64,000 bases of DNA from Bacteroidota bacterium (GTDB taxonomy: Bacteria > Bacteroidota > Bacteroidia > Chitinophagales > Chitinophagaceae): positions 1-64,000 of the forward strand of contig VGGV01000002.1 of NCBI GenBank assembly GCA_016868455.1, in the 5' to 3' direction. A program made the position numbers and the translations under genes. Shown here piece after piece: positions 1,109 through 59,634 of this stretch. The notes beneath the pieces are model-generated. The model searched no databases. It was not told the DNA's origin and saw only the letters and a list, made by a program, of their open reading frames with translations. Position 1 is the first letter of the stretch; each line of letters begins with the position of its first letter.

Positions 1109-1185
1109 TAATGTGCTAATTTGCTGATGAGCTAATTAAGGAAGTTTCATTGGTATATTATCCAATTGACCAATCAGCAAATTAT
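1109..1185. repeat. Paired 8-base-period array (direct arm plus inverted arm)
   Basis: Positions 1109-1140 hold four 8-base units with consensus TRATNNGC (first unit TAATGTGC, second TAATTTGC). After a 21-base gap, 1162-1185 holds three 8-base units of the opposite sense (CCAATTGA, CCAATCAG, CAAATTAT). The arms contain a perfect 12-base inverted repeat, TAATTTGCTGAT against ATCAGCAAATTA. The element fills the gap ahead of the pterin dehydratase start at 1191. Confidence 0.75.
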
Positions 1186-1190
1186 TTCTT

Positions 1191-1427
1191 ATGTGGGAAG
1201 AAAAAAATAATAAACTGTACAAGAAATTTCAATTCAAAAATTTCAGTGAGGCCTTTGCTTTTATGACAAGAGTGGCCATTGAAGCAGAAAAAATGGATCA
1301 TCATCCGTTGTGGACGAATGTTTGGAATACTGTAGAAATCTGGCTCAGCACACATGATGCCGGTGATATAGTTACAGACAAAGACAGAAAACTTGCTGAT
1401 AAAATTGAGAAACTAATGGAACCCTGA
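1191..1427 (+). CDS. 4a-hydroxytetrahydrobiopterin dehydratase (pterin-4-alpha-carbinolamine dehydratase)
   Basis: A 78-residue protein carrying the PCD signature: [20 protein letters not shown] (residues about 31-50) followed by [14 protein letters not shown]. The paired histidines of DHHP and the later THD histidine are the catalytic residues of this family, which dehydrates 4a-hydroxy-tetrahydropterin during pterin recycling for aromatic amino acid hydroxylases. It is at the short end of the family (usually about 95-110 residues) because it lacks the usual N-terminal strand. The ATG at 1191 is the only good start and directly follows the repeat array. No phenylalanine hydroxylase lies in the window. 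Confidence 0.88.
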
Positions 1428-1430
1428 TTC

Positions 1431-1480
1431 TTATGATGATTAATGCAGGTACATTTCATAATATATCTTAATCATCATAA
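1431..1480. repeat. Perfect 13-base inverted repeat between PCD and ctlX
   Basis: TTATGATGATTAA (1431-1443) and TTAATCATCATAA (1468-1480) are exact reverse complements separated by 24 bases. The stem is AT-rich and has no T-tract, so it does not look like a standard intrinsic terminator. It could be a binding site for a dimeric regulator or a remnant of a palindromic repeat. Confidence 0.6.
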
Positions 1481-1506
1481 CAATCTGCGTTCTTAAAACA
1501 ATCACA

Positions 1507-2424
1507 TTGCCTGCTGCTTCCACCATATTGATGGTTCGTCCCGCTGCTTTTGGCTTTAATGAAGAAACGGTCGCCAATAATTATTTTCAGCATAACCCGG
1601 ATATTTCAAAAGAAGAAGTGCAGCAAAAAGCGCTGTCTGAATTTGATGCCATGGTGGAAAAGCTGCGCAGCAATGGAATGGATGTGGTGGTAATAAATGA
1701 CACGGCTGAACCACCCAAGCCCTCTGCCATTTTTCCCAACAACTGGCTCAGCACCTCTCCGGAAGGAAAATTATTTGTGTATCCCATGTATGCCCCCGGC
1801 AGGAGGCTTGAAAAAAGGGATGAGGTATTAAAAATGCTGGCAAAGGATTTTGTAGTAAAGGATGTGCAGGACTGGAGTGAATTTGAAGCCGAAGAAAGAT
1901 TCCTGGAAGGTACAGGCAGCATGGTAATGGATCATGGCAATAGACTCATCTATGCTGCCATATCAGAGCGGACCAATTTATCTGTACTGGAAAAGTTTGC
2001 CGCTGCCAACGGCTACCAGGCCATTGTTTTTTTGGCTGCAGACAAACAGAGCCGGCCGGTGTATCATACCAATGTGGTGATGACGTTGGGAGAAAATTTT
2101 TGTGTGCTTTGCGAGGAAGCCATTGAGGAAGAATGGGAGCTGATAGCGGTGCGGCAACTGCTGGAGTCAACCCATCATACTATTATTCCGATAACGAAAG
2201 AGCAGATGCACCAGTTTGCCGGCAATATGCTGGAGGTGAAGAATAAGAAAGGGGAAAATATTCTGGTGCTGAGCCAAAACGCTTTTAATTCTTTGCGCAA
2301 GGAGCAGAGGGAGATGCTGGAAGCCTATGCCAGGCTGTTGCCCGTTGCTGTTCCCACAATTGAACAGGTAGAAGGCGGCAGTGTGCGGTGTATGATGGCA
2401 GAGGTGTTTTTGGAGAGGAGGTAA
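1507..2424 (+). CDS. ctlX: Citrulline hydrolase CtlX (guanidino-group-modifying enzyme superfamily)
   Basis: A 305-residue protein starting STILMVRPAAFGFNEETVAN, typical of CtlX, which hydrolyses citrulline to ornithine, CO2 and ammonia. Superfamily residues are visible: the acidic EGTGSMV segment (about residue 135), the catalytic histidine in YHTNVVM (about 187) and the nucleophilic cysteine in EGGSVRCMMAEVF near the C-terminus. No ATG exists before MVRP. I use the TTG at 1507 because it restores the conserved STILM segment. The alternative ATG at 1531 would remove the first eight residues. Its stop abuts the stop of convergent selD with no spacer. Confidence 0.88.
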   Translation: MPAASTILMVRPAAFGFNEETVANNYFQHNPDISKEEVQQKALSEFDAMVEKLRSNGMDVVVINDTAEPPKPSAIFPNNWLSTSPEGKLFVYPMYAPGRRLEKRDEVLKMLAKDFVVKDVQDWSEFEAEERFLEGTGSMVMDHGNRLIYAAISERTNLSVLEKFAAANGYQAIVFLAADKQSRPVYHTNVVMTLGENFCVLCEEAIEEEWELIAVRQLLESTHHTIIPITKEQMHQFAGNMLEVKNKKGENILVLSQNAFNSLRKEQREMLEAYARLLPVAVPTIEQVEGGSVRCMMAEVFLERR

Positions 2425-3504
2425 TTACTGTTTCACCCAAACCCTCTTCTCATTTTCTGCAATCATCTTCCCAACTGCCACAATCTCATTTCTCAAAACA
2501 TTTTTTACCTCATCAATAGCCTCTTCCCTCACACTCACCAGCAACCCGCCATTTGTCTGTGGGTCGGGTAACAGCGTAAAGGCTTCCATCACATTCACTC
2601 CCTTCTCAAACTTTACCGTATCACTGTAGGCATTCCAGTTTCTTGTTGTTGCATCCGGAAAAATGCGCTGGGTTATATATTCTCTTACTCCGGTGGCGAC
2701 TGGTATTTTATCATAATATATTTCTGCGCTCAGTCCGCTGCCTTCCGCCATTTCTATCAGGTGACCCAGCAGGCCAAAGCCGGTTACATCCGTCATGGCG
2801 GTTACGCCTTTTATTTTTCCCAGTTCTTCACCCATCTTATTCAAGGTTGTCATTTGCTCAATCATCACCGGTAAATGCTCTGGTTTCAGCAGCCCTCTTT
2901 TTTGAGCGGTGGATAAAATGCCAACGCCCAGCGGCTTTGTCAGAAATAAATAATCATCTTTCTGTGCGGTATGGTTTCGTTTTAAATTTTCTGTTGGAAC
3001 TATGCCGGTAACGGCCAGTCCGAATATTGGTTCAGGTGAATCAATGCTGTGCCCGCCGGCCAATGGGATGCCGGCTTCTTTGCAAACGGCTCTTCCGCCT
3101 TCAATTACTTTTTGCGCCAGCTCAACTGGCAGCTTTTCCACCGGCCAGCCCAATATGGCAATGGCCAGTATTGGTTTGCCGCCCATGGCATATACATCGC
3201 TGATGGAGTTGGCCGCAGCGATCCTTCCAAAATCAAAAGCGTCATCCACTATCGGCATAAAAAAATCAGTAGTGGAAATAAGTGCCATGCCATTACCCAG
3301 ATCATACACGGCTGCATCATCTTTGCTGTGGTTGCCAACAAGCAGCTTATCATTATCGGGTAGTGCAATGCTGCTCTTTAATATTTCATCCAGCACTTTG
3401 GGGGAAATTTTGCAGCCGCAACCGGCGCCGTGGGAGTATTGGGTGAGAGCGGCCCCCCCAACCCCCGAAGGGGGGATTTGAGAAGAGTCTTTTTGTTCTA
3501 ACAT
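2425..3504 (-). CDS. selD: Selenide, water dikinase (selenophosphate synthase)
   Basis: A 359-residue protein that makes selenophosphate from selenide and ATP, the selenium donor for the SelU enzyme encoded upstream on the same strand. The active-site motif reads [13 protein letters not shown], so the catalytic position is cysteine, not selenocysteine. Other SelD landmarks are [16 protein letters not shown] (metal and nucleotide binding), GGHSID and GFGLLGHL. Residues about 7-20 ([13 protein letters not shown]) are not part of the family and coincide with a GC palindrome in the DNA (3453-3475), so the extreme N-terminus seems to have been extended by a repeat. The ATG is at 3504. Confidence 0.95.
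3453..3475. repeat. C-rich/G-rich palindrome inside the selD N-terminus
   Basis: CCCCCGAAGGGGGG (3462-3475) preceded by a C6 run forms a hairpin. It encodes IPPSGVGGA in selD. Related C/G palindromes occur at 29093-29116, 51651-51666, 53113-53146 and 60614-60652. Confidence 0.6.
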
Positions 3505-3537
3505 TCTGCAAATCTCGGATAAAAAAATTCACGCCAA

Positions 3538-3553
3538 CCTACCGGCCGGCAGG
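3538..3553. repeat. GC palindrome, CCTGCC/GGCAGG family
   Basis: CCTACCGGCCGGCAGG, one member of a dispersed family also seen at 10651, 44520, 53778, 58072, 58138 and 61587. It lies in the gap upstream of selD. Confidence 0.6.
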
Positions 3554-3554
3554 G

Positions 3555-3622
3555 GCGCAAAGAATTCGCAAAGCCCCAAAGACAATTTTCGACTTGCATA
3601 TTTCACTTAGCGTCTTTGCGTG
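3555..3622. repeat. GCAAAG-type short repeats with inverted copy
   Basis: Three spaced copies of a (CG)CAAAG core (3555-3582, spacing about 10-11 bases) are followed by an inverted copy, GCGTCTTTGCG, at about 3610-3620. It occupies the gap between selD and the upstream gene. It is weaker than the heptamer arrays. Confidence 0.4.
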
Positions 3623-3626
3623 ATGC

Positions 3627-5027: not shown

Positions 5028-5202
5028 AATAAATTCACTGCGGGAATAGCCATATACTTTGCCCCTGTATTCTGTAAGAACAATTTCAAACAGCTGGTCT
5101 TTTCTTACGGTGGTGCTGTCGTTGCTCAGGGCGCCCGTCCACAGCCCGGTTAGCGATTGCCCGGGGAAAAATAAGGGACAAAAAAGAAAGAGAACGGCGA
5201 GC

Positions 5203-6336
5203 CTATATTTTTTGCGGCAGTTTTATTGAATGAAGGATAAGCTGGCTGGCATTTTCAGAGGTTACGGATTTGCATTCAATGCTATGTAATAACGAATTTA
5301 CATTCTCCCGATTGTGCAGGCCTTTTAAATAGTATTTATCGTAATATTTCAGCAGGATGCGGAAACTTTCTACGGTATTTCCCTCTTCCAGCAACTGAAT
5401 TGCTGTTTTGGCCTGTAGTCCGCCCAGTTTTTCCTTTATTCGTTCGATGGCGTCAATCATCCGTTGCTTTTCGAGGCAACCGTATTCTTCGGCAAGATGT
5501 TTTAATCTTTCTTCAAAGGGGATATCCAGGAAATAAACCGGAGACTGCCGCATGGTTTTCCAGAGATCGTTCGGGATGTTCACATGCCCGATGCGTTGAG
5601 ATTCATCTTCTAACCAGATACCGGAGGTATGAGGTATGAAGTCTGAAGGGGCCGTCCCGTCTTCTGACCTCTGACTTCTGACATCATTAAGGCTTTGTGC
5701 GAGGACATTCTCAAACATTTCCTGAGAAGGCTGCTCAGGCATTCCGATGTTGCCAAAGGCGGAGCCTTTGTGTTTGGCGATGTTTTCCAGATCAATGACG
5801 GGTTCACCTTTTCCCTTTAAAGCTCTCAGTAATTCTGTTTTTCCTGAACCGGTGTAACCGCCAAGTATCCTGAATTGAAAAGGCAGTCTAAAAGTATCAA
5901 GTACATAGTTGCGGAATTTCTTATAACCGCCAATAAGCGTGCACACCTTAAAGCCATACAGATCGAGTAACCATGCCACGGCGGCGCTGCGCATGCCTCC
6001 CCGCCAGCAGTAGAGGAGGATTAGTCTTGAGTCGATAGTCGTTAGTCCGGCGCTGTTGGGTAACGACTCATGACTATTGACTATTGACTCAACTTCTTCC
6101 ACCATTTTTCTCATCTTAGGCCCGAAAAAATCCAACCCGGTTTTAATGGCCACTTCCCGGCTTTGCTGTTTGTAAGTGGTGCCAACAACTTTTCTTTCAT
6201 CATCCGTAAACAGTGGCAGCGAATGTGCGCCGGGGATATGTGCATGTTTGTATTCGGCAGGGCTGCGCACATCTATTACAGGGTGCTGCTTTGCAAGTTC
6301 AAGAAACTGTTCAACATGTAATTTCTCAACAGCCAT
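5203..6336 (-). CDS. mnmH: tRNA 2-selenouridine(34) synthase (SelU/MnmH)
   Basis: A 377-residue enzyme that replaces sulfur with selenium at wobble 2-thiouridine of tRNAs for Lys, Glu and Gln, using selenophosphate from SelD. The N-terminal rhodanese domain carries the conserved cysteine loop YCWRGGMRS (about residue 111), and the P-loop GGYTGSGKTELL (about 160-171) starts the ATPase part. Two stretches outside the family pattern (VESIVNSHESLPNSAGLT and DVRSQRSEDGTAPSDF) are encoded by heptamer repeat arrays at 6023-6092 and 5624-5683. A TAnnTTTG box ends four bases before the ATG. Confidence 0.93.
   Translation of the reverse strand: MAVEKLHVEQFLELAKQHPVIDVRSPAEYKHAHIPGAHSLPLFTDDERKVVGTTYKQQSREVAIKTGLDFFGPKMRKMVEEVESIVNSHESLPNSAGLTTIDSRLILLYCWRGGMRSAAVAWLLDLYGFKVCTLIGGYKKFRNYVLDTFRLPFQFRILGGYTGSGKTELLRALKGKGEPVIDLENIAKHKGSAFGNIGMPEQPSQEMFENVLAQSLNDVRSQRSEDGTAPSDFIPHTSGIWLEDESQRIGHVNIPNDLWKTMRQSPVYFLDIPFEERLKHLAEEYGCLEKQRMIDAIERIKEKLGGLQAKTAIQLLEEGNTVESFRILLKYYDKYYLKGLHNRENVNSLLHSIECKSVTSENASQLILHSIKLPQKI
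5624..5683. repeat. Heptamer array pair inside selU (second element)
   Basis: Four 7-base units start at 5624 (GAGGTAT, GAGGTAT, GAAGTCT, GAAGGGG). After 11 bases come three units of the opposite sense from 5663 (TCTGACC, TCTGACT, TCTGACA). The reverse complement of the second arm (GTCAGA core) matches the GTATGA/GTCTGA core of the first. The element is in the coding sequence, between the P-loop and the C-terminal part of SelU. Confidence 0.75.
6023..6092. repeat. Perfectly periodic heptamer array pair inside selU (first element)
   Basis: Positions 6023-6050 contain four consecutive AGTCNNN heptamers. After 14 bases, 6065-6092 contains four consecutive GACTNNN heptamers, the reverse-complement core. 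The two 28-base arms could pair as an imperfect hairpin. It is the cleanest member of the array class in this window and is translated as part of SelU just before the rhodanese active-site loop. Confidence 0.85.
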
Positions 6337-6340
6337 TTTA

Positions 6341-6348
6341 CAAAAGTA
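6341..6348 (-). promoter_or_regulatory. Bacteroidota -7 box TACTTTTG for selU
   Basis: On the minus strand TACTTTTG (TAnnTTTG type) ends four bases upstream of the selU ATG at 6336, predicting a leaderless or nearly leaderless transcript for the selU group. Confidence 0.55.
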
Positions 6349-6355
6349 TCAAAAC

Positions 6356-6381
6356 AAAAAAGCCGCCGTTATCCGGCAGCT
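6356..6381 (-). terminator. Intrinsic terminator after rho
   Basis: Read on the minus strand, a hairpin with arms GCTGCCG and CGGCGGC and a 5-base loop is followed by six T. It lies between the rho stop (6420) and the selU start (6336) and separates the two transcription units. Confidence 0.7.
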
Positions 6382-6394
6382 TGTTTATTTACTC

Positions 6395-6410
6395 TCCGCC
6401 AGCCGGCGGA
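6395..6410. repeat. GC palindrome downstream of rho
   Basis: TCCGCC-AGCC-GGCGGA is a perfect 6-base-arm palindrome, ten bases past the rho stop and just before the rho terminator. It resembles the GC palindromes found elsewhere in the window. Confidence 0.45.
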
Positions 6411-6419
6411 CCGGGAATT

Positions 6420-8092: not shown

Positions 8093-8317
8093 ATAAACAG
8101 CTTAAGGTTAATCACTATCCGAAGTAACCAATCCGGGAATTTGAAATTTTGAATTTATATTGAAAGAAACAGGCGGTAAATGTGAGCTAAAGCCTTGGGA
8201 GAACTATACTTATCGGCCTCTTTCTGCTGCAATGATACGGCGAAATCCTGAAAATCAAAAATTTTTGGCAAGGGTCCCCGGGGTTGAAAAGCTTGCCGAC
8301 AGCTGAATTTCAGTAGC

Positions 8318-8325
8318 TATCTTTG
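8318..8325 (+). promoter_or_regulatory. Bacteroidota -7 box TATCTTTG for asnS
   Basis: TATCTTTG ends six bases before the asnS ATG at 8332, implying a very short or absent 5' leader. The rest of the 8093-8331 gap shows no coding signal. Confidence 0.55.
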
Positions 8326-21606: not shown

Positions 21607-21722
21607 GTCAAGTAAGTCAATCAGGTCAAATTTGTCATCTAAGTCATACAGGTCAAATAAGTCAATTTTTAGAGAATATGACCCCGTTTTGCACCTGACT
21701 TTTATGACTGATACGACCAATA
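21607..21722. repeat. Nine-base-period array pair between uppS and bamA
   Basis: Seven consecutive 9-base units start with GTCA from 21607 to 21669 (first unit GTCAAGTAA). After about 25 bases, units starting TGAC or CGAC follow with the same 9-base period (21696, 21705, 21714), the reverse-complement core. The whole is also bracketed by CGGGGTCA (21603-21610) and TGACCCCG (21679-21686). The only other content of the 21599-21867 gap is AT-rich leader sequence. Confidence 0.85.
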
Positions 21723-36439: not shown

Positions 36440-36474
36440 TTCGTCAATTCGCCATTCACTATTCACCATTGCCT
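36440..36474 (+). repeat. Heptamer array directly upstream of the psd promoter box
   Basis: Consecutive 7-base units ATTCGCC, ATTCACT, ATTCACC, ATTGCCT from 36447, preceded by TTCGTCA (36440). The last base of the array is the first base of the TATATTTG promoter box. Confidence 0.7.
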
Positions 36475-39937: not shown

Positions 39938-40503
39938 ATCACCTGTCGGATTAATGGCAGTATAATAGTTACCCTTGTGCCGGCGGCATTTCCTTTCGCA
40001 TCCTATAAATCTTCTACCTTAAATGAACTTTGATGAGGATGCTGTTCATTAACTGTTTTTATTCTTTCTTCAGCTACAGAAAGCCCCTTGCCGGTATGCC
40101 CTTCCGGGTTGTTTATTTTTTTTGCCGCCATGCGGCCAATACCATTATCCTCCACCACGCAAACAAGGGTTTCATCACCATCTTCTGAAAAAACAACATT
40201 TACAACTCTCTCCCTCTCTTTGTGAAGCAGGCCATGCCAGATGGCGTTTTCCACAAAGGGCTGTACCAGCAGGGTGGGTATTTTTATTTCATCAGTATCT
40301 ATATTGTACAGGGCATCGCCATATTCTTTCAGGCTCATACTTTCTTTTTTCTGCAGAAGCGACTGGTATTGCTGATTAGCCATTTTCCGGTTTTGCTTTT
40401 CCAGTGTAATAAACCACCAGACTAAGGCAGCAATAATATAGACCAGCAGCATCCAGTAGATAACTGTGGCCCTTCGTAATTTTTCCCGGCTGCTGTCGGG
40501 CAT
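39934..40503 (-). pseudogene. Chimeric, truncated sensor histidine kinase
   Basis: The open part (ATG 40503 to TAG 40003) starts with DSSREKLRRATVIYWMLLVY and a membrane helix, a start I associate with orthodox kinases. After about 65 residues it becomes the ATPase part of a LytS-type kinase (IKIPTLLVQPFVENAIWHGL, then VEDNGIGRMAAKK and GKGLSVAEERIK). The H-box segment with the phospho-His is missing. Past the TAG the same frame continues DAKGNAAGTRVTIILPLI to TGA 39936-39934, overlapping the regulator ATG, so the TAG is a premature stop. The junction is roughly 40290-40345. Confidence 0.75.
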
Positions 40504-40506: not shown

Positions 40507-40995
40507 TTATGGTTGTTTTTTTTCGATCCGCAGGCCTACATTCAGCACATGTTCCAGGGGATCTTCCCGCATGACTTGTTCGATAGTAAAAGTATATTCT
40601 CCCTTTTTTCGGAAGTAGAAGTCGGTTTCTTCAGGGGTGAGGAGTATTCGGTGTTCAAAAATGTCATCCATCCCGCTGCCTTTCCATCCTTCTTCGTCAT
40701 TGCCCAGTTCAAGCGGATACATTACCGATCTGGCGCTGTCTTCCCCAGGTTGCCGGGTAATGAGGTTGATATAGATATTATTGTAGTTATACTGATCAAA
40801 GTGCCGCAGGGTTAACAAGATCTTATAAGGAACGGCCGTGTCTTTAATGGTGAAGCGGAAAGAGGGTTTAAAACTGCTCTTCCATTTATGACCCGGGATA
40901 ACGGTTGTTTTTTCGTACAGATCAATGGTCTGGCATGAGAAAAGACACAAGACACAAGGCACAAGGCACAATAGGGAACTTATTTTTCTGTTCAT
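40507..40995 (-). CDS. gldH: Gliding motility lipoprotein GldH
   Basis: A 162-residue lipoprotein. Lipobox CLFSCQT after a signal peptide whose core (LLCLVPCVLCLF) is encoded by a heptamer array (40942-40969). The mature part has the GldH features FRFTIKDTAVPYKILLTLRH, YNYNNIYINL and WKGSGMDDIFEHRILLTPEE. GldH belongs to the Bacteroidota gliding/type IX secretion set, although its role is undefined and many non-gliding species keep it. It lies downstream of yicC. A second heptamer array of inverted sense (41024-41058) is in its leader. Confidence 0.92.
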   Translation of the reverse strand: MNRKISSLLCLVPCVLCLFSCQTIDLYEKTTVIPGHKWKSSFKPSFRFTIKDTAVPYKILLTLRHFDQYNYNNIYINLITRQPGEDSARSVMYPLELGNDEEGWKGSGMDDIFEHRILLTPEETDFYFRKKGEYTFTIEQVMREDPLEHVLNVGLRIEKKQP

Positions 40996-41058
40996 TCAGT
41001 AAAGATACGTTTAGCATTAAAGTCTTGTACCTTGTTCCTTGAACCTTGTACCTTATAA
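40942..41058. repeat. Heptamer array pair flanking the gldH start codon
   Basis: Arm 1, 40942-40969: AAGACAC twice, AAGGCAC twice. Arm 2, 41024-41058: CTTGTAC, CTTGTTC, CTTGAAC, CTTGTAC, CTTATAA. Arm 2 is the reverse-complement theme (GTACAAG) of arm 1. The gldH ATG (40995) lies in the 54-base loop, arm 1 codes for the signal peptide and arm 2 runs to the yicC stop. Confidence 0.85.
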
Positions 41059-50477: not shown

Positions 50478-51614
50478 ATGTCAGACCATCTCAATATTTC
50501 CGACTTTCTTGATCCCATTGACCTGCATGAAGTATCACATGACGAGAGCTACAAAGAAGGGCAATTGGGTAAAGCGATTTCCATTTACAGCGGAGAATTT
50601 CCAGACCTGGATGCGGCACAGATAGTGATTATTGGCTGCGGCGAACAGCGGGGCAGCGGGCTGATAAATGGCCACAGCGAGGCGCCGGACATCATCCGCC
50701 GTCATTTTTATAATTTGTACTACTGGCACCAGGAGATTAAAATAGCAGATGCCGGTAATATCAAAGCCGGTTCTTTATATACCGATTCCTATGCTGCTTT
50801 AAAGACGGTGGTGCAGGAGTTGATCGGTGATGGTAAAACAGTAATCATCCTCGGCGGCTCACATGACCTCACCCTATCACAATACTACGCCTACGCAGAA
50901 AATAAAAAACTGATTGAGGCCAGTTGTGTGGATGCCCTGATTGACCTGAATCTTGAATCACCCTTCCGGCATGAGAATTTCCTGATGGAAATGCTGACCG
51001 GAGAACCCAACTATATCCGCCACTACAACCATATCGGTTTCCAGAGCTACTATGTGCACCCCCGGATGCTGGAAACGCTGGACAAACTCCATTTTGACTG
51101 CTACCGGGTGGGCAGCGTAAAGGAAAATATTGACGAGATGGAACCGGTGATCCGCAACAGCAATATGCTGAGTTTTGATATGACGGCCATCGCCTATGCC
51201 TATGCACCCGCCACCACGGCCTCACCCAATGGTTTTAACGGCGAAGAGGCCTGTGTGCTGATGCGCTATGCCGGCATGAGCCCCAACATCAATAGCATCG
51301 GCATTTATGGTTATGATGTGCAGCATGACAAGGATGAACTGACGGCCAAACAGATTTCTCATATGCTCTGGTATGTGCTGGATGGCCGCAGCCGGGGCAG
51401 GAGGGAGGCACAACTGGATGAAAAAGATTCCTTCAACGAATATCACACCGCTTTTGCAGAAGTGGAAACGGTATTTATACAAAGCAAAAAAACAGGCCGC
51501 TGGTGGATGCAGCTGCCCGATAAAAAATTCATCGCCTGCAGTTACAAGGATTACCTGCTTGCCAGCAGTAATGAGATACCGGAACGTTGGCTGAGGGCGC
51601 AGGAGAGGGGCTGA
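50478..51614 (+). CDS. Arginase/formimidoylglutamase-family protein with altered metal site
   Basis: A 378-residue ureohydrolase fold protein from ATG 50478. The first metal motif is intact (LGGSHDLTLSQYYAY), but the second reads DALIDLNLE where catalytic members have DAHxD, and the third reads SFDMTAIAYAYAPATTA where SFDxD is usual. So several of the manganese ligands are missing and hydrolase activity is doubtful. Similar proteins in Bacteroidota are routinely annotated as formimidoylglutamase. A weaker promoter-like TATCTTCG ends six bases before the ATG. Confidence 0.82.
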   Translation: MSDHLNISDFLDPIDLHEVSHDESYKEGQLGKAISIYSGEFPDLDAAQIVIIGCGEQRGSGLINGHSEAPDIIRRHFYNLYYWHQEIKIADAGNIKAGSLYTDSYAALKTVVQELIGDGKTVIILGGSHDLTLSQYYAYAENKKLIEASCVDALIDLNLESPFRHENFLMEMLTGEPNYIRHYNHIGFQSYYVHPRMLETLDKLHFDCYRVGSVKENIDEMEPVIRNSNMLSFDMTAIAYAYAPATTASPNGFNGEEACVLMRYAGMSPNINSIGIYGYDVQHDKDELTAKQISHMLWYVLDGRSRGRREAQLDEKDSFNEYHTAFAEVETVFIQSKKTGRWWMQLPDKKFIACSYKDYLLASSNEIPERWLRAQERG

Positions 51615-51648
51615 GCCGGGAGTCATTAGTCATTAGCCAGGAGTCTTC
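51614..51648. repeat. Heptamer array starting at the arginase-like gene stop
   Basis: Five 7-base units from 51614 (AGCCGGG, AGTCATT, AGTCATT, AGCCAGG, AGTCTTC) with the AGYC core, as in selU arm 1 (6023-6050). A C/G palindrome (51651-51666) follows at once. Confidence 0.7.
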
Positions 51649-51713: not shown

Positions 51714-51787
51714 GCTCAATAATCAATTTTCAATGTTCAATTTTCGGTACAATAAATCGTACTTCATACTTCTGACCTCATACCTCA
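51714..51787 (+). repeat. Two heptamer arrays at and after the dacB start codon
   Basis: Units NNTCAAT four times at 51714-51741 (GCTCAAT, AATCAAT, TTTCAAT, GTTCAAT); the ATG at 51733 lies inside. A second array occupies 51760-51787 (TACTTCA, TACTTCT, GACCTCA, TACCTCA) and encodes the core of the signal peptide. The second matches the reverse complement of the selU array at 5624. Confidence 0.8.
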
Positions 51788-53106
51788 TCCATTCATCCTG
51801 CTCCATTCAAAAACAAATAGCCCGATCTGCCAAAGAAGAGGTATTAAGCAATAAAGCCTTCCAAACCGCCCATGTCGGCATCAGCATTTTTGAACCTGCC
51901 GAAAACAAATACCTCTACAACTACCAGGGCGATAAATATTTTGTACCTGCCAGCAATACCAAGCTGCCTACCTGCTATGCAGCGATGAAATATTTGGGGG
52001 ATAGTTTAGTGGGGTTGTATCTGGTTGATTTTAAATACAAAGATATTGGGGCCAAAAATTGGAAAGACAGCATATGGTTGATTCAACCGGCGGGAGACCC
52101 AACTTTTCTTCATCCGGATTTTAAAAATCAACCTGTTTATGAACTTTTAAAATCATTGAACCGGCCGATTTCATTGGTTGCGCCAAATTGGTTTGAACAA
52201 GGGTTAGGCTCTGGATGGGCATGGGGCGATTACCAGGAAAATTATATGGCTGAACGAAGCGCAATGCCGATATATGGTAATGTGGCGAGGTTTCGGTTGA
52301 ATAAAGATGTTTTTACTGCAACGCCAAAATATTTCTTATACCAGGATGATTCAATATTAGCAGACTATATTAACGATAGATTGCCAAAAACTGATTTTAC
52401 AATCCGAAGAGAATTGAACAAGAACAATTTTTATTTCACTGAGTCAAGGCAGAAATTTCAAAGTGTGGAAATACCTTTTGTGCCAACCGACAGTATAGTA
52501 GAAAGATTATTAAGTGATACCATTGGGAAAAAAATATCATTCGGAAAAATTTTTGATGCCAATTTTGCAAAAGGTGGTCACAATGCAATCCACTCCCAAC
52601 CCACCGACTCCCTCCTCAAACCCATGATGCACCGAAGCGATAATTTTTTTGCGGAGCAATCATTATTAATGGTGAGCAATGAAATGCTGGGGGTGATGAA
52701 CGATGAAAAGATTATTGACACATTGCTCAAAACAGATTTCAAAGACCTGCCGCAAAAGCCAAGATGGGCAGATGGGAGCGGCCTCAGCCGGTATAATTTA
52801 TTTACCCCGCAGGATTTTGTTGCCATTCTCAATAAAATGAAAAATGAGTTTGGTATGGAACGCATCAAGGTCATTTTCCCCACCGGCGGCGAAGGAACTA
52901 TCAGCAGTTACTACAAAGCCGACAGTGGATATATTTATGGCAAAACAGGAACTCTATCCGGTGTTGTTGCCTTCAGTGGTTATTTCTATACAAAAAAAGG
53001 TAAACTATTAATTTTCTCTACGCTGGTTAATAATCATCAGGGTTCAACAACTGATATAAGGCGGGCAGTTGAAAGATTCCTGCAAGGAGTTCGTTCCAAG
53101 TTCTAG
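51733..53106 (+). CDS. dacB: D-alanyl-D-alanine carboxypeptidase/endopeptidase (PBP4, S13 family)
   Basis: A 457-residue low-molecular-weight penicillin-binding protein that trims or cleaves peptidoglycan peptides. The three active-site motifs are visible: PASNTKLPT (SxxK, about residue 74), MMHRSDNFFAEQ (SxN) and IYGKTGTLSG (KTG). The N-terminal signal (YFILLTSYLIHSSC) ends in a possible lipobox Cys and is encoded by heptamer arrays, so the original start may have been altered. A C/G palindrome separates it from converging mutL. Confidence 0.92.
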   Translation: MFNFRYNKSYFILLTSYLIHSSCSIQKQIARSAKEEVLSNKAFQTAHVGISIFEPAENKYLYNYQGDKYFVPASNTKLPTCYAAMKYLGDSLVGLYLVDFKYKDIGAKNWKDSIWLIQPAGDPTFLHPDFKNQPVYELLKSLNRPISLVAPNWFEQGLGSGWAWGDYQENYMAERSAMPIYGNVARFRLNKDVFTATPKYFLYQDDSILADYINDRLPKTDFTIRRELNKNNFYFTESRQKFQSVEIPFVPTDSIVERLLSDTIGKKISFGKIFDANFAKGGHNAIHSQPTDSLLKPMMHRSDNFFAEQSLLMVSNEMLGVMNDEKIIDTLLKTDFKDLPQKPRWADGSGLSRYNLFTPQDFVAILNKMKNEFGMERIKVIFPTGGEGTISSYYKADSGYIYGKTGTLSGVVAFSGYFYTKKGKLLIFSTLVNNHQGSTTDIRRAVERFLQGVRSKF

Positions 53107-53112
53107 GAGTCT

Positions 53113-53146
53113 AAAGCCCCTCTTTCGGAGGGGTTTGGGGAGGCCC
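53113..53146. terminator. C/G palindrome between dacB and mutL, probable terminator
   Basis: AGCCCCTC-TTTC-GGAGGGGTTT, followed by GGGGAGGCCC. It fits both the C/G repeat family and a bidirectional terminator between converging genes, and it touches the mutL stop. Confidence 0.5.
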
Positions 53147-54990
53147 TACTTCCCAAACATCTTCTCCAACTGTTCTTGCTTAAATTCTAAAAAAGTAGGA
53201 TTACCATCCGGTGAAACGTTCGGCTGCTCGCAGGCAAAAAGATCATTCACCAGTTGGTGCATCTCCTTGTCAGTAAGTTTCACCCCGGTTTTGATGGATT
53301 GCTGTCTTGCGAGCGAACGAACCAGCTTTTCTCTTTTAGAGAATTTTACTTCCGGGCTAAAATGCTTGTACTGCTCCAATAAAATATCAATGATGTGTTT
53401 TTCATTACCCGCTTCCACATCGGCCGGTGTTCCCTGAATGACAAATGTGTTTTTCCCAAATGGTTCAATTGAATAACCAAGTAATTGCAAGTCGGATAAG
53501 ATTTCTTCCAATATCGCTGCATCTGCAGGAGCTAATTCCAATGTAGCAGGAAACATACTGCGCTGAGTTGCCACTGGTTTGTCCTTGCTGGCTGCGCTCA
53601 GCCGTTCGTACAACACTCTTTCATGCGCCGCCTGCTGGTGAATGAGGAGGAAGCCGTTGACAAACGGAATGATGATATAAGTGTTTAATAATTGGCTAAG
53701 CTCTGAATCCGCCGTGAGTGGTGAGTGGTGAGTGGTGAGTAGCGTCTCTGATTTTTGTATTGACTCCTGACTCCCGGCCTGCCTGCCGGTAGGCAAGGCT
53801 TCTGACTCCGAACTCTCGTAAAAATCTCTCCAATGCTTCAGCTCACTCTTCTCAATAAAATGCGCCTGATGTTTTTGAGTAAAGCCTTTGAAGATAGAAG
53901 AGGATATGGCTGCTTCCTGTTTTTTCTCTGTAAAAGGCTGCTGAATGGCAGGTAACTGTTGAATGGTTGCATCGAGGTCAAAATCGAGGGTAGGAGTGAC
54001 GCTGAACTGAGCCAGTGCATGTCTCACCGCCGCCTGTACAAATGCATAAACGATCTTTTCGTCTTCAAATTTGATCTCCTGTTTTGTCGGGTGCACATTA
54101 ACATCTACCAGCGTGGGATTAAGGTCAATAAACAGAACATACATGGGGAAACTGTCCGGAGGGATCATTTCCTGGTAGGCGCTCATCACTGCATGGTTCA
54201 GGTAAGGACTTTTTATAAACCGGTTGTTGACAAAGAAGTATTGGTCACCCCTTGTCTTTTTTGCAGCTTCGGGCTTGCCCGCAAATCCATAAATGTTCAT
54301 GTAATCGGTTTCTTCCTTTACCGTTACCAGTCTGGCATTGTAATTATTGCCCAGCAGTTGTACAATGCGTTGCTTCAGGCTGCCTGCTTCCAGGTGAAAT
54401 AACTGCTGGTTATTAGCCGTAAGGGAAAACTGAATGGCCGGAAATGAGAGTGCCACCCTGGTAAACTCATCCACGATCTGCCGCATTTCAGCCGCATTGC
54501 TTTTTAAAAAATTCCGGCGGGCCGGCACATTGAAAAATAAATTCTTCATTGCTATGCTGGTACCATTTGGCGCTGCCACCGGTTCCTGCTTCTTCACCAC
54601 ACTGTTCTCTACTTCAATGTAAGTGCCTGTTTCATCTTCGGCTCTTTTCGTTTTCAGTTCTACCTGTGCCACTGCTGCAATGGAAGCCAGTGCTTCGCCC
54701 CGGAAACCCATGGTGCGGATATGAAACAGGTCTTCGATAGTGGCAATCTTGGATGTGGCATGCCGTTCGAAACTCATCCGGGCATCCGTTTCACTCATAC
54801 CGGTGCCATTATCCACTACCTGTATCAGCGATTTGCCTGCATCTGTGATAATGAGTTTAATATCCGTGGCGCCGGCATCCACTGCATTTTCCATCAATTC
54901 CTTCACAGCGCTGGCCGGCCGCTGAATTACCTCGCCGGCCGCTATCTGGTTGGCAATATTATCGGGGAGTAACGTAATCTTATCCGGCAC
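53146..54990 (-). CDS. mutL: DNA mismatch repair protein MutL
   Basis: A 614-residue protein. The N-terminal GHKL ATPase has ELMENAVDAGATDIKLIITD, VVDNGTGMSE and MGFRGEALASIAA. The middle transducer domain follows, and the C-terminal dimerisation domain starts about residue 430. The nuclease-type motif there reads IHQQAAHERVLYE, not DQHAxxExxxxE, so metal-dependent nicking is uncertain. The linker (about residues 390-425) contains PTGRQAG and TTHHSPLTADSE, encoded by a GC palindrome and heptamer arrays. The start is GTG 54990 (PDKITLLPDNIANQIAAGEV). Confidence 0.95.
   Translation of the reverse strand: MPDKITLLPDNIANQIAAGEVIQRPASAVKELMENAVDAGATDIKLIITDAGKSLIQVVDNGTGMSETDARMSFERHATSKIATIEDLFHIRTMGFRGEALASIAAVAQVELKTKRAEDETGTYIEVENSVVKKQEPVAAPNGTSIAMKNLFFNVPARRNFLKSNAAEMRQIVDEFTRVALSFPAIQFSLTANNQQLFHLEAGSLKQRIVQLLGNNYNARLVTVKEETDYMNIYGFAGKPEAAKKTRGDQYFFVNNRFIKSPYLNHAVMSAYQEMIPPDSFPMYVLFIDLNPTLVDVNVHPTKQEIKFEDEKIVYAFVQAAVRHALAQFSVTPTLDFDLDATIQQLPAIQQPFTEKKQEAAISSSIFKGFTQKHQAHFIEKSELKHWRDFYESSESEALPTGRQAGSQESIQKSETLLTTHHSPLTADSELSQLLNTYIIIPFVNGFLLIHQQAAHERVLYERLSAASKDKPVATQRSMFPATLELAPADAAILEEILSDLQLLGYSIEPFGKNTFVIQGTPADVEAGNEKHIIDILLEQYKHFSPEVKFSKREKLVRSLARQQSIKTGVKLTDKEMHQLVNDLFACEQPNVSPDGNPTFLEFKQEQLEKMFGK
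53714..53815. repeat. Heptamer arrays and GC palindrome in the mutL linker
   Basis: GTGAGTG three times plus GTGAGTA (53714-53741), then TGACTCC twice (53761-53774), then the palindrome CCTGCCTGCCGGTAGGCAAG (53778-53797) and further TCTGACTC-like units to 53815. Everything is translated within the flexible MutL linker. Confidence 0.8.
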
Positions 54991-55103
54991 AAAATCGTAT
55001 TAGCCGCCAAAAATAACCATTTCATTTTTAAGCAACTTTCAGCAATTTCTTTGCATTAAAAAAGGTAATTTTAGTATTCATTTCATTAATCAATCACCTT
55101 GCC

Positions 55104-58043
55104 ATGAAACTGTTCAAGCCGGCTCTGATCATTGGCCTTTTATTACCAAATATTCTTATTGCACAATACAAAAGCGGTCTTGCCAGAGAGCAGTGGGTGG
55201 ACAGTGTATTCAACTCACTCAGCGATGATGAGAGAATCGCCCAGCTGATGGTCATCCGGGCACATTCCAACCTTGGAGCCGATCATGTAGAGAAGGTGAC
55301 AAAGGACATCAAAAAATATAATGTGGGTGCCTTGTGTTTCTTTCAGGGCGGGCCGGTTCGGCAGGCCAATCTCACCAACTTTTATCAAAGTATTGCCAAA
55401 ACGCCGCTGATGGTTACGATTGATGGTGAATGGGGGCTGGGCATGCGGCTTGACAGCGTTGCCAGGTTTCCCTACCAGCTTACTATTGGCGCCATCAGTG
55501 AAGAACGCCTTGTGTACCAAATGGGTTTGGCAGTAGGGGAACAATGCAGGCGGATTGGAGTGCATGTAAATTATGCGCCGGTGGTTGACATCAACAACAA
55601 CCCCAACAATCCGGTGATCGGCTACCGTTCTTTTGGTGAAGACAGGGAAAAAGTTTCAAAATATGGAATTGCTTACATGACGGGAATGCAGGATGCGGGC
55701 ATCATGGCCTGCGCAAAACATTTTCCCGGGCACGGCGATGTGGATGTGGATTCACATTATGATCTTCCTGTAATCAAAAAAAGTATTGACCAACTTGATT
55801 CAATGGAGCTGGTACCATTTAAAGCAGTGTTTGATGCAGGTATTGGCAGTGTGATGATTGCGCATCTTTCCATTCCGGCTATTGACAATACCGCTAACAG
55901 GGCTACTTCGATTTCAAAAAACAACGTAACTGATTTACTACGGAACAAAATGGGCTACCAGGGCCTCACTTTTACAGATGCGCTGGAGATGAAAGGAGTG
56001 GCCAAATATTTCCCGGATGGTGTGATATCTGTTGAAGCGCTGATTGCCGGCAACGATATGCTTTGCCTTCCTGCCAGTGTGCCGGAATCAATTGAAGCCA
56101 TTAAACAAGCCATTGCAGATAAAAAACTGGGCTGGGATGATCTTTATACCAAGACAAAAAAAGTGCTGGCATCCAAGTTTGACCTGGGAATGAACAAGAC
56201 CCAGTGGGTTGATACCAACAACCTGCTTGCCGACCTGAATGCTAAAACAGATGCCATCCGATATGAAGTAGCGCAGCACAGCATGACCTTGCTCAACCAG
56301 GCCAGTTTGACGGCATCAAGAAATGATTATGCCGTGGTGCCGCTCACTTCTTCGGGGAACTATACCGGTGCGAAAGGTAAACCGGGGAAGGTGGCCTATG
56401 TGGGCATCGGCACATCAGAGCTGAATGATTTTGGAAAAAGATTGCAGCAGGATTTTGGCGCAGATGTGTTTACCTTTTCTTACAAAGACGGACAGGATAA
56501 GGCGGATGAGATTTTAAAGGCCGTGCCAAAAGACGGAAAGTATGATGCTATCATAGTAGGTATTCACAACTATTCACTTCGACCGGCTGATAATTTTGGC
56601 ATCAGCCCGGCTGCTATCAACCTGTATAGGCAACTTAATTTTATCAGGACCATTACCCTGACATTCGGAAACGTTTTGGCAACAAAGAATTTTTGCGATG
56701 CCTGGACCCTGCTGGCCTGTTACCAGGATGATATCATCACACAACAGGCTGCGGCAGATTACCTTTCTGGCAAATTCGAACTGCAGGGCAGGCTGCCGGT
56801 TTCTGTGTGCCGGTTTAAATTCGGCGATGGAATTGTGAAAGACGAAAAAGACCCAGCCTGGCACCGCCCGGAACAACTGGCACAGGTGGATTCTATTGTG
56901 AACGATGCGGTGGTGCAAAAGGTTTTTCCCGGTTCAGTGGTGCTGGCGGTGCATGAAGGAGAGATTGTTTATCATAAAGCTTTTGGCAATTATAAATACG
57001 AACCTTCTCAGCCGGTAAGTCTGGAAAGCATTTTTGACCTCGCCTCTGTTACCAAAATTTCAGCCACTACCGTTTCAGTTATGAAGCTTTATGAACAGGG
57101 AAGGCTTGATTTTAAAAAAAAGCTTGGCGATTTCCTTCCAATTGTAAAAGGTACTAATAAAGAAAATTTAAGGATAGATGATATACTGCTGCACCAGGCA
57201 GGGCTGGTACCCTTTATTCCTTTTTATAAAGAAACAATTGATTCTGTTACAGGCGAACCCAAGGCGGTTATTTACAGAAGTAAACCCGAACCTGGTTTTA
57301 CCGTAAGGGTGGCCGAAGGAATTTATATGCGGGATGACTGGGGAGATACCCTGTTTGCCCGTATACTCATAAGCCCGCTGGGACCACAGGGCAAATATGT
57401 GTACAGCGATAATGATTTTATTTTTCTCGGCAAAGTTGTGGAAGAGATAACGGGAATGAAACTGGATGAGTATGTGCAGAAAACATTTTACCGCCCTATT
57501 GGAATGATAAGTACCGGCTATAAACCAAGAGAACGGTTTGCAGCAAATAAGATGGTTCCTACCGAAACGGAAAAACATTTTCGCCGGCAAACCACGCAGG
57601 GAGATGTGCATGATGAAGGCGCTTCTATGTTTGGCGGAGTGGCAGGCCATGCGGGGTTATTTTCCAATGCTTATGACCTTGCCATGCTTTACCAGATGTT
57701 ATTGAATGGAGGCACATTTAATAGCGAAAGATACCTGAAGAAAGAAACCATTGATTTGTTTACATCTTATCACAGCAAAAACAGCCGCCGGGGATATGGG
57801 TTTGATAAACCGGAGAAAAATAATGCCACCCGCAAAGAAACCTATCCCTCATCCCTGATATCACCGCTGGCATTTGGCCATACCGGCTTTACCGGCACCT
57901 GTGTATGGGTAGATCCGAAATATAACATTGTATATGTATTTCTTTCAAACCGTGTGTATCCCACCCGGGATAACAATAAGCTTGGCCAGTTGCTGATACG
58001 GGGAAAAATACAGGATGCGATTTACAGGGCGTTGGGGATCTAA
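55104..58043 (+). CDS. Glycoside hydrolase family 3 (NagZ-like) fused to a beta-lactamase-type serine hydrolase
   Basis: A 979-residue exported protein. Residues about 30-380 are a GH3 barrel with the NagZ-type loop ACAKHFPGHGDVDVDSHYDL, implying N-acetylglucosaminidase activity in cell-wall recycling; about 390-590 form the second GH3 domain. From about 600 a class C beta-lactamase-like domain follows with SVTK (DLASVTKISATT), YSD (YVYSDNDFIFLG) and a C-terminal HTG (FGHTGFTGTC). This fusion is known in Bacteroidota. Peptidoglycan sugar and peptide processing in one protein is inferred. The stop abuts that of ricT. Confidence 0.93.
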   Translation: MKLFKPALIIGLLLPNILIAQYKSGLAREQWVDSVFNSLSDDERIAQLMVIRAHSNLGADHVEKVTKDIKKYNVGALCFFQGGPVRQANLTNFYQSIAKTPLMVTIDGEWGLGMRLDSVARFPYQLTIGAISEERLVYQMGLAVGEQCRRIGVHVNYAPVVDINNNPNNPVIGYRSFGEDREKVSKYGIAYMTGMQDAGIMACAKHFPGHGDVDVDSHYDLPVIKKSIDQLDSMELVPFKAVFDAGIGSVMIAHLSIPAIDNTANRATSISKNNVTDLLRNKMGYQGLTFTDALEMKGVAKYFPDGVISVEALIAGNDMLCLPASVPESIEAIKQAIADKKLGWDDLYTKTKKVLASKFDLGMNKTQWVDTNNLLADLNAKTDAIRYEVAQHSMTLLNQASLTASRNDYAVVPLTSSGNYTGAKGKPGKVAYVGIGTSELNDFGKRLQQDFGADVFTFSYKDGQDKADEILKAVPKDGKYDAIIVGIHNYSLRPADNFGISPAAINLYRQLNFIRTITLTFGNVLATKNFCDAWTLLACYQDDIITQQAAADYLSGKFELQGRLPVSVCRFKFGDGIVKDEKDPAWHRPEQLAQVDSIVNDAVVQKVFPGSVVLAVHEGEIVYHKAFGNYKYEPSQPVSLESIFDLASVTKISATTVSVMKLYEQGRLDFKKKLGDFLPIVKGTNKENLRIDDILLHQAGLVPFIPFYKETIDSVTGEPKAVIYRSKPEPGFTVRVAEGIYMRDDWGDTLFARILISPLGPQGKYVYSDNDFIFLGKVVEEITGMKLDEYVQKTFYRPIGMISTGYKPRERFAANKMVPTETEKHFRRQTTQGDVHDEGASMFGGVAGHAGLFSNAYDLAMLYQMLLNGGTFNSERYLKKETIDLFTSYHSKNSRRGYGFDKPEKNNATRKETYPSSLISPLAFGHTGFTGTCVWVDPKYNIVYVFLSNRVYPTRDNNKLGQLLIRGKIQDAIYRALGI

Positions 58044-59390
58044 TTATTTCTCTTTTCCCTGATTAGAGTTACCTGCCCGTCCGGCAGGCGGGTTCGGCCT
58101 CTGCTGATTGCGGTTGGGATTACTCGGCTTTTGCTGACCTGCCTGCCGGTCAGACAGGTTCCTGTCAGGGTTGTTTTGCTGCTGCCCTTGCTGCTGGTTA
58201 CCTTGTTGTTTTCTTTGTTGCCCCCCTTGGCTCTTGTTTCTTGTATCTTGGTTCTTATTTTTTTGTTGTTGCTGCTGTTTCTTTTTCCTTTCCGCTTTTT
58301 CCAAAGTTCTCAGGCTAATCTGGCCAACCAACTCCACTGTTTCAGGTTCTTTTTCTACCGACTTCGAAGTAGTTACATCCACCGGTTCCAGTTCTTCCGG
58401 CTTAATGCCCTGCTGGTTTAATGTTTTTATTTTTTGTACCCTTTCAATACTTAATGGATACTGTTTATTGCTGTCGGGCAAGGTGTACCACATCAGGTTC
58501 TTGAAAATATCTTTCTTGATGAGGAAGGCATTGCCCTTTGCTACCTGTATCACATCACAGTTGTCAGGGAAGTGCTGCAACGCATCTAAGTAAGTATCCA
58601 ACTCATAATTCAAACAGCATTTCAATCTTCCGCATTGTCCGCTGAGTTTTGTCTGATTGATGGAAAGGTTCTGATAACGGGCTGCTGCTGTATTCACGGA
58701 TTTAAAATCTGTGAGCCATGTGCTGCAGCAAAGCTCCCGGCCGCAACTGCCAATTCCACCCACTTTACCTGCTTCCTGCCGGGCACCTATCTGCCGCATC
58801 TCCACTTTTACTCGGAATTCTCCGGCATATACTTTTATCAGTTCCCTGAAATCTACCCGGCCATCAGCAATATAAAAGAAAGTGGCCTTGCGTCCATCAG
58901 CCTGCATTTCCACCTGGCTTATTTTCATATCCAGTTTCAGTTGCCTGGCAATGGCACGGCTACGTATCACTGCTTCCGGTTCCCTTTCTTTATTCTGATT
59001 TCTAATTTCAATATCACGGTCGCTTGCCCGGCGCAATACTTTTTTCATTTCAGGATTGTCTTCCTTCACATTCCGTTTCTTCATCTGCAGGCGAACGATC
59101 TCACCCGTCAACGACACTTCGCCCACATCAAATCCACTCACTCCTTCCACGGCTATCAGGTCGCCTTTTTCAAAAGGTTGCAACGATGTATTGCGGAAAA
59201 AATCTTTGCGGGTACCCTGGCTGAAACTCACTTCAATCACCTTGCAGACGCTGTCCATATCAGCAATTGGCAGGTTGCGCAGCCAGTCATAGGCATTCAT
59301 ACGGTTGCACCCGCCGGAACTGCATCCGCCGTTGCTCTTGCATCCGTTTGGCTTACCGCCGGTAGTGGTGCTGCAACCTGTACAACCCAT
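58044..59390 (-). CDS. ricT: PSP1-domain protein, RicT-like, with Cys-rich N-terminus and Q/N-rich tail
   Basis: A 448-residue protein from ATG 59390. Residues 2-30 hold six cysteines in a Gly/Ser-rich stretch (GCTGCSTTTGG ... NGCKSNGGCSSGGC). The PSP1 core follows (ARQEAGKVGGIGSCGRELCC, SGQCGRLKCCLNYELDTYLD) with its CGRxxCC and CGRLxCC cysteines. RicT homologues form a complex that controls RNase Y and binds Fe-S clusters in Bacillus; the Bacteroidota role is unknown. The last 80 residues are Q/N/K-rich low complexity and contain two palindrome-encoded inserts, LSDRQAG and NPPAGRAG. Confidence 0.9.
   Translation of the reverse strand: MGCTGCSTTTGGKPNGCKSNGGCSSGGCNRMNAYDWLRNLPIADMDSVCKVIEVSFSQGTRKDFFRNTSLQPFEKGDLIAVEGVSGFDVGEVSLTGEIVRLQMKKRNVKEDNPEMKKVLRRASDRDIEIRNQNKEREPEAVIRSRAIARQLKLDMKISQVEMQADGRKATFFYIADGRVDFRELIKVYAGEFRVKVEMRQIGARQEAGKVGGIGSCGRELCCSTWLTDFKSVNTAAARYQNLSINQTKLSGQCGRLKCCLNYELDTYLDALQHFPDNCDVIQVAKGNAFLIKKDIFKNLMWYTLPDSNKQYPLSIERVQKIKTLNQQGIKPEELEPVDVTTSKSVEKEPETVELVGQISLRTLEKAERKKKQQQQQKNKNQDTRNKSQGGQQRKQQGNQQQGQQQNNPDRNLSDRQAGQQKPSNPNRNQQRPNPPAGRAGNSNQGKEK
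58072..58092. repeat. GC palindrome in the ricT tail (second)
   Basis: CCTGCCCGTCCGGCAGGCGG, encoding PPAGRAG on the minus strand, the same peptide as the gcvT insertion. Confidence 0.7.
58138..58158. repeat. GC palindrome in the ricT tail (first)
   Basis: CCTGCCTGCCGGTCAGACAG plus G, encoding LSDRQAG on the minus strand. It lies 45 bases from the other copy. Confidence 0.7.
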
Positions 59391-59402
59391 ACGCAATTTT
59401 TG

Positions 59403-59420
59403 TCCCGATAGCTATCGGGA
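59403..59420. repeat. Perfect 18-base palindrome TCCCGATAGCTATCGGGA
   Basis: An exact palindrome 12 bases upstream of the ricT ATG (minus strand). A close relative lies inside dusB (34446-34461). Half-sites (TATCGGG) occur at about 43638 and 59595. The rest of the 59391-59647 gap shows nothing else apart from the array at 59604. Confidence 0.75.
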
Positions 59421-59603
59421 TACGATTTTAGATTTGTTGAGAGGGATGATGACACCAGCTTCAGTTCCCTGATTGGGCTTTAGTTGCGTCGCACTCTTGT
59501 ACGTTTTGTCCGCTATTCAGCAAAGCGAAATTCTTCTGATTAGCAATGCTATATATAAGAGTAGAAGTAGACATAACTATAGTAACCTGAAACTATCGGG
59601 CTC

Positions 59604-59634
59604 TCACTAATTAACCAGTAAACCAGTTAACTAA
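59604..59634. repeat. Eight-base-period TTAACCAG array
   Basis: TCACTAA followed by 8-base units TTAACCAG, TAAACCAG, TTAACTAA (59611-59634), the same core as the arrays at 43645 and 45830. It lies 13 bases from the holB stop. Confidence 0.65.

Follow-up and report, generated by a model that had tools for sequence, protein, structure and literature searches.

Tandem arrays of heptamers dispersed over the genome are not new to bacteria. The short tandemly repeated repetitive sequences (STRR) of heterocystous cyanobacteria are genome-dispersed heptamer tandem arrays of fixed words, and we know of no inverted pairing among them. This paper concerns bases 1-64000 of contig C2 of assembly G000 (2.64 Mb), from the Chitinophagaceae, a placement indicated by a gene for a GldH lipoprotein and by the relatives of its MutL. 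This stretch, hereafter the window, carries imperfect arrays of period seven, often with units of complementary sequence nearby. An earlier note on the window knew no name for the class, which is partly wrong. Heptamer repeats have been published for Xanthomonas campestris and X. axonopodis, as GGGAATC or (GGGANTN)n, and for Nostoc, as GGGGA(C/T)T (Rehm et al. 2015, PMC4692102). TAACTGA direct repeats have been published for the Beggiatoaceae, the Cyanobacteria and five Bacteroidetes (MacGregor 2015, PMC4679880). In the sections of PMC4692102 drawn on here, the Xanthomonas repeats frequently occur as convergent pairs (70 and 75 cases), are 89-93% intergenic, and vary extensively in length and sequence across species between the same genes; their function is left open, and a proposal is cited that the seven bases correspond to the length of DNA that the polymerase holds. 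In the sections of PMC4679880 drawn on, the TAACTGA repeats have a fixed word and lie mostly near start codons, with one inverted case. Although such repeats have been reported more than once, their cause is left open in these parts of the Xanthomonas and Beggiatoaceae literature.

How do the arrays of the window and its relatives compare? With the Xanthomonas and Nostoc repeats, as far as those sections describe them, they share the seven-base period, imperfect units, few units per array and an intergenic excess. With those of Xanthomonas they further share convergent inverted pairs and arrays that vary between species at the same gene pairs. With the TAACTGA repeats they share genome-wide dispersal of seven-base tandem arrays and a patchy phylogenetic spread. 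The differences are equally plain. Xanthomonas and Nostoc have one word type per genome, whereas the 285 arrays collected here, from many genomes, have 178 distinct words, several of them within the window and within G000. The exact word TAACTGA is found in 0 of the 285 and a word within one base of it in 4. Our arrays are intergenic in 53 of 132 cases, as against the 89-93% of Xanthomonas, and at one site they may be replaced by unrelated words, a behaviour not described for Xanthomonas in the sections of PMC4692102 used here. We therefore set them apart as a variant, with many words, of the same general kind. No description of such arrays in the Chitinophagaceae was found among the top-ranked titles of the open-licence literature.

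Are the arrays more than chance would supply? When a 4-base core had to be identical in at least four units, the window gave seven arrays of period 7 and 60 dinucleotide shuffles of it gave none; every other period from 5 to 15 gave 0 or 1. A further 390,853 bases of G000 hold nine such period-7 arrays (0.1 when shuffled). The loci of the best 80 of 542 MutL relatives hold 55 (0.2 when shuffled); period 8 comes next, with 21 (0.6). These 80 loci are titled Chitinophagaceae, Terrimonas (itself a member of that family), Niabella and the like, or simply Bacteroidetes, Bacteroidota, Chitinophagales or Sphingobacteriales bacterium. A score free of any core, which takes the fraction of bases in five units that agree with their consensus (0.77 or more, here without a complexity filter), was run over 1.97 Mb of array-rich loci, including the window and excluding small-genome and order-level loci. 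It found 240 arrays of period 7 and 9 in shuffles. The corresponding figures were 56 and 35 at period 5, 56 and 5 at period 6, 43 and 0 at period 8, 13 and 1 at period 9, and 0 and 0 at period 10. We conclude that the arrays are real and non-random and that period 7 is dominant; the earlier note had claimed exact-period arrays and named shuffled sequence as the control, and in that control they are far rarer. An origin in chance, codon usage or composition might appeal to periods 6 and 9, which are also raised, as coding periodicity could do. However, seven is not divisible by three, period 7 gives the strongest signal, and that signal falls to chance level in three small-genome members of the genus (1 array against 0.6 in shuffles), in two order-level relatives from other families of the order (0 and 0) and in 50 kb of E. 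coli (0). This explanation is refuted, and we give it practically no credence.

The arrays of the window, to which no strand is assigned, are listed here with the two genes to which several of them belong:

6019-6092: heptad hairpin array, with words around AGTC (left arm) and GACT (right arm), inside the rhodanese gene; period 7, expected 0.01 per 64 kb
5621-5690: heptad array with inverted arm, in a second variable loop of the rhodanese gene; expected at most 0.08 per 64 kb
5203-6336, minus strand: rhodanese-domain protein gene (Pfam PF00581, E 1e-12), holding both of the preceding arrays
21607-21722: array of 9-base period, GTCAAxxxx, with inverted arm, between two open reading frames (ORFs); 36/45 matches at period 9, expected 0.00
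40936-41058: two heptad arms about 50 bases apart, CACAAGR left and CTTGTNC right; 26/28 matches, expected 0.00
51611-51648: heptad array AGYC, single arm, at a gene end; 27/35 matches, expected 0.08
51716-51788: two adjoining heptad arrays of unrelated words, TCAATTT then TACTTCA; 25/28 matches, expected 0.00
53714-53776: heptad array, GTGAGTG four times with two inverted units, in the linker of mutL; 21/21 matches, expected 0.00
53146-54990, minus strand: mutL gene (Pfam PF01119 and PF08676)
1101-1185: array of 8-base period with inverted match; 27/32 matches, expected 0.01; RNA fold z -1.3 and -3.1
36443-36474: weak heptad array, single arm, between ORFs; 23/28 matches, expected 0.26
8138-8156: short heptad array with 5-base core, 3 units
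58226-58260: heptad array CTTGNNT, inside ORF 58044-59396

The last two were absent from the list in the earlier note. Eight of its eleven places stand out, with shuffled sequence expected to yield no more than 0.08 per 64 kb (6023, 5624, 21607 at period 9, 40942, 51614, 51714, 53714, and 1109 at period 8), while 36447 is doubtful (0.26) and 38454 (0.67) and 43567 (0.70) are at chance level. Each expected value is the smallest over nine settings of period and unit number, uncorrected, and for this reason 51614 (0.08) is only a fair case. RNA folding of the two strands gave z values of -5.3 and -4.1 for 6019-6092, which sits in a loop short or missing in several orthologues of the same genus; -3.2 and -0.5 for 5621-5690, where relatives have other words; -1.9 and -2.6 for 21607-21722; -3.8 and -4.6 for 40936-41058; and -1.6 and -2.7 for 53714-53776, many relatives having other words in the same MutL linker. 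At 40936-41058 the left arm lies in the start of a GldH-like ORF and the right arm is intergenic, and several orthologous places have other words or none.

The right arm of that array, CTTGTNC, is matched six times, with overlap, at G000:C8:36618-36763, at a spacing of 21 bases and once of 28: a longer array with a 21-base super-repeat. The period-9 array likewise has kin within its own genome. The word GTCAAATxx occurs at three loci (window 21607-21722, L117 4915-4954 and L122 6175-6205), and inverted arms are visible at two of them.

If the arrays are real, how are their two orientations related? For this we used 285 arrays, 333 before low-complexity arrays and duplicates were removed; at the same threshold the data gave 353 and the shuffles 39. 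A complementary word, matching at no fewer than 16 of 21 positions and no more than 120 bases away, accompanies 57 of the 285, which represent 41 distinct places. When words were swapped between arrays the count was 8, 5 and 8; for direct, reversed and merely complemented words it was 7, 7 and 13. Inverted complementary units are thus borne out as a property of the class. Within the window the claim stands in part: inverted arms are visible at 5624, 6023, 21607, 40942 and 53714, but of the 11 arrays entered only 6023 and 40942 (both arms) pass the formal test. Array 5624 misses it by one match, and 51714 consists of two adjoining arrays whose words are unrelated. The hairpins have a polarity. 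G exceeds C in the 5' arm of 51 of the 57 entries and falls short of it in 3, and purines make up more than half of that arm in 49 (some hairpins are counted by both arms); judged by consensus words, the G-rich arm comes first in 45 cases and second in 4. Since the polarity of a hairpin is identical on both strands, transcription direction is not its cause.

How do the units within an array relate to one another? The textbook account is that of a classical simple sequence repeat, in which single units are gained and lost by slippage and the copies are blurred by mutation. In its favour, close relatives differ by whole seven-base units at two places, namely the AGTC array and an array upstream of gldH. 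In 48 pairs, moreover, arrays have 33 indels in 2439 bp against 70 in 17856 bp, and multiples of seven are in excess (5/33 against 2/70). But stepwise duplication should make neighbours alike, and they are not. Unit identity is 0.666, 0.664 and 0.660 at distances of 1, 2 and 3 units and 0.597 at distance 4, which always compares the two ends. Minor variants that are shared are neighbours in 96 of 235 columns, where 94 are expected for no relation and simulated stepwise duplication gives 69-77%. Nor does this account provide for inverted partners, or for units that are exchangeable between arms. We consider the classical simple sequence repeat disfavoured and rather unlikely.

The same exchangeability bears on how the second arm arises. 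In 40 hairpins with at least three units per arm, identity between arms is 0.68, against 0.69 and 0.68 within arms, and a permutation test detects no match in unit order between the arms (Wilcoxon p 0.50). The arms are as alike mutually as are units within an arm, and without order, so the units look like independent descendants of one word. An ordered fold-back copy of one arm from the other is rejected on the same 40 hairpins. Template-switch mutations, a replication process that makes inverted copies, can restore the pairing of hairpin arms (Monttinen and Loytynoja 2022, PMC8794818). As described in the portion of that paper used here, a single switch leaves an ordered reverse-complement copy, which the arms here are not. 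Of the earlier proposal, self-copying or slippage, a mutational process is the part best in accord with the data; plain stepwise slippage lacks support for want of neighbour similarity, and the second arm does not copy the first in order.

The differences among units are of a neutral type. Their ratio of transitions to transversions is 0.77; intergenic sequence gives 0.82 (G058-G062) and 0.73 (G059-G062), and coding sequence 1.3. Base-specific hypermutation of the diversity-generating retroelement or deaminase type is rejected, as all four bases change at similar rates (14-20%).

The arrays had been described as a constant core of 3-5 bases with free remaining positions. In the 285 arrays, found without regard to columns, mismatches are spread almost evenly over the columns (heterogeneity 3539 against 3456 when permuted, sd 43). 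An imperfect array of five units will usually show some invariant columns, so the 'constant core' design is largely ascertainment. The core tests began with 195 arrays, for 141 of which a match spanned the array; we removed duplicates, matches of 99% or more and, ahead of both counts that follow, 34 gapped arrays. An unpolarised count over 80 pairs of orthologues gave 265/1376 changes in core, 182/505 in spacer and 2724/13271 in flank (p 2e-13). The columns called core were picked in the very array under comparison, which biases this count, and we reject the constraint it appears to show. With changes polarised by a third species (41 triples), 47/546 core positions (8.6%), 18/143 spacer positions (12.6%) and 366/5156 flank positions (7.1%) had changed: core constraint is not significant (core against spacer p 0.15), and the core changes no more slowly than the flank. 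A privileged core is therefore not borne out. Nor do the cores form a small set, given the 178 words, although AGTC-type words recur (26 arrays in 2.6 Mb). A motif common to the words was rejected as too weak, at an information of 2.82 against 2.65 (sd 0.07, best of 40 shuffles 2.81).

Where do the arrays lie, and do they stay there? Of 132 strict arrays in 2.23 Mb (loci of at least 9 kb, with a few overlaps), 53 are intergenic, a class that makes up just 11.3% of bases; another 73 fall within predicted ORFs, by a simple rule that overstates coding, and 6 at edges. Intergenic arrays are found between convergent genes in 18 of 50 cases (17.7% of intergenic bases) and between divergent genes in 7 of 50 (31.7%). 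Among the genes hit, that for the rhodanese has its arrays in loops that are short or missing in several orthologues of the genus, and MutL in its linker.

When orthologous loci are compared, as was proposed with the original description, 470 of 1079 comparisons reveal an array at the corresponding place; random intervals of equal lengths have one in 182 of 5395 cases. The comparisons are not independent, falling into 30 site groups (two of which may be one site), with a few loci supplying most of them. The same word (6-7 of 7 bases) is present in 96 of the 470, five bases are shared in 138, and four or fewer, an unrelated word, in 236; random pairs of words give 5%, 15% and 80%. Twelve of the 30 groups have an array in another species and ten an unrelated word; for the 16 groups with at least three orthologues these numbers are ten and eight. 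Words are shared less as the flanks diverge: among comparisons that have an array and lack an identical 28-mer, the word is the same in 4/4 with flank identity above 91%, 15/25 at 85-91%, 48/131 at 80-85% and 7/35 below 72%. We conclude that species often share the site but differ in the word. One site is a curiosity. Upstream of a gene for an S13 peptidase, 171 bases around the array GAATGAT differ at two positions between G059:C3 and G062:C4, although these genomes differ by about 15% overall, and G058 has a different word there; the likeness of G059 and G062 looks like recombination between lineages.

Sites kept in this way would be expected of a selected element, an RNA or DNA hairpin (a two-way terminator or a protein site, for example) whose place is maintained by selection while its sequence is free. 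An intrinsic terminator is a short G+C-rich hairpin followed by a run of T at the end of a gene. The convergent excess and divergent deficit agree with such an element, as do the uniform polarity of the arms and a median RNA fold z of -3.6 over the 57 partnered entries, which were however chosen for pairing. On the other hand, the 73 strict arrays in predicted ORFs are where a terminator would do harm, the core in the polarised test changes no more slowly than its flank, and the rhodanese loops are short or missing in many orthologues of the genus. Selection for a hairpin is in our judgement an improbable explanation.

What distinguishes the genomes that have arrays? Twelve genomes of the genus were sampled with the complexity filter on, some by only 23-80 kb. 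Density per 100 kb is 14.1 in the window, 9.5 in the rest of the G000 sample, 13.4 in the 80 MutL loci, 9.2 in eight larger-genome members pooled, and 0.5 in the three small-genome members. Not every larger genome stands out alone: the 40 kb of G025 contain no four-unit exact-core array. The arrays are restricted, then, to a part of the genus as sampled.

Mobile repeats of the repetitive extragenic palindromic (REP) or miniature inverted-repeat transposable element (MITE) type, moved by a REP-associated tyrosine (RAYT, Y1) transposase or made by a reverse transcriptase, are a further candidate. Across 42 genomes of the genus, with profile matches judged by family cut-offs, Y1_Tnp is present in 17, with three matches in G000 and none in the 17 genomes of 2.1 Mb or less, and palindromes like CCTGCCT..AGGCAGG occur within some arrays. 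But G059 and G062 carry arrays and are without a Y1_Tnp match, and G000 has no match to RVT_1 (6/42 genomes) or to Ku (2/42); nor do the 285 arrays share a palindromic consensus. RAYT, reverse transcriptase and Ku are not required for arrays, and a mobile origin, largely refuted as a requirement, is very improbable. The earlier opinion that these are neither CRISPR (clustered regularly interspaced short palindromic repeats) nor REP elements holds. A CRISPR array was rejected by period alone, seven bases against repeats of about 24-40 bases with unique spacers beside cas genes, and Rfam at gathering scores has zero matches in the window. Absence of the hairpin nuclease SbcD is at most permissive: none of the 42 genomes reaches the cut-off (25 have weak matches), array-poor ones included, as against 8 of 14 control genomes. 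Y-family polymerases are in 42/42 and do not discriminate. By their distributions none of these five families explains the difference within the genus.

A dedicated activity, kept in the larger-genome members of the genus and lost in the reduced ones, might write bursts of one heptamer in both orientations at preferred sites, in the manner of a telomerase-like or hairpin-extending polymerase. Were this so, the units would be copied independently from one word and would be interchangeable between the arms, and a new word could replace an old one at the same site. We regard such an activity as quite unlikely.

A mutational process fits best with the many words, the unrelated words at the same sites and the intergenic type of substitution, and the form we prefer, to which we give about half of our belief, is that of arrays born in bursts by slippage and template switching and decaying by ordinary mutation at tolerated sites. 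An array would arise in a short burst at a tolerated place, intergenic or in a variable gene loop. The polymerase would slip by seven bases and switch template, producing several copies of one word almost simultaneously, in one or both orientations. Thereafter the units would diverge by point mutation and by gain and loss of units, and the same place would be liable to overwriting by a later array of another word. There are 34 pairs of relatives whose flanks are at least 80% identical but whose words at a shared site are unrelated. Mean internal identity of the more uniform array in these pairs is 0.84, against 0.82 for the flank, and in 12 pairs it is lower than the flank; this is close to the expectation for arrays born exact after the split and then decaying neutrally.

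Several observations weigh against birth in bursts. Steady birth should leave many near-perfect arrays, and too few are seen: among 156 five-unit arrays with at least 28/35 matches, a score of 33 or more occurs just 8 times and a perfect one never, whereas 4 arrays of period 8 are perfect. The scarcity hints that arrays are born imperfect, a variant that the 34-pair comparison does not support and that we rejected. One locus looks concerted and not star-like: AGTC is read in all five units of G062, but AGTT in most of those of G058 and G059. Slippage with mixed jumps of several units could also flatten the distance curve. The G-rich 5' arm is not predicted by a symmetric mutational process, and the polarity needs a cause. 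Finally, there are only 30 site groups, fewer still if some of them belong to a single site, and most comparisons come from a handful of loci.

The star-like relation of the units argues against the textbook model of stepwise slippage. Since a single genus has genomes rich in arrays and others poor in them (about 9 and 0.5 per 100 kb sampled), the cause of such repeats becomes a comparative question. Arrays in conserved proteins, as in the linker of the mismatch-repair protein MutL, rewrite their loops and are thereby a source of new protein sequence.

Two further kinds of repeat were noticed. A palindrome close to CCTGCCTNCCGGNAGGCAGG occurs at 53778-53797 of the window, and with 2-3 mismatches at 61587-61606 and 3534-3553 (three matches against 0.04 expected); in some relatives (L087, L196, G058 and G059) it lies within a heptad array or replaces part of one. 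Short stretches at 53106-53146 and at about 40209-40304, apparently unrelated to the heptads, match many places in genomes of the genus at 73-100% identity.

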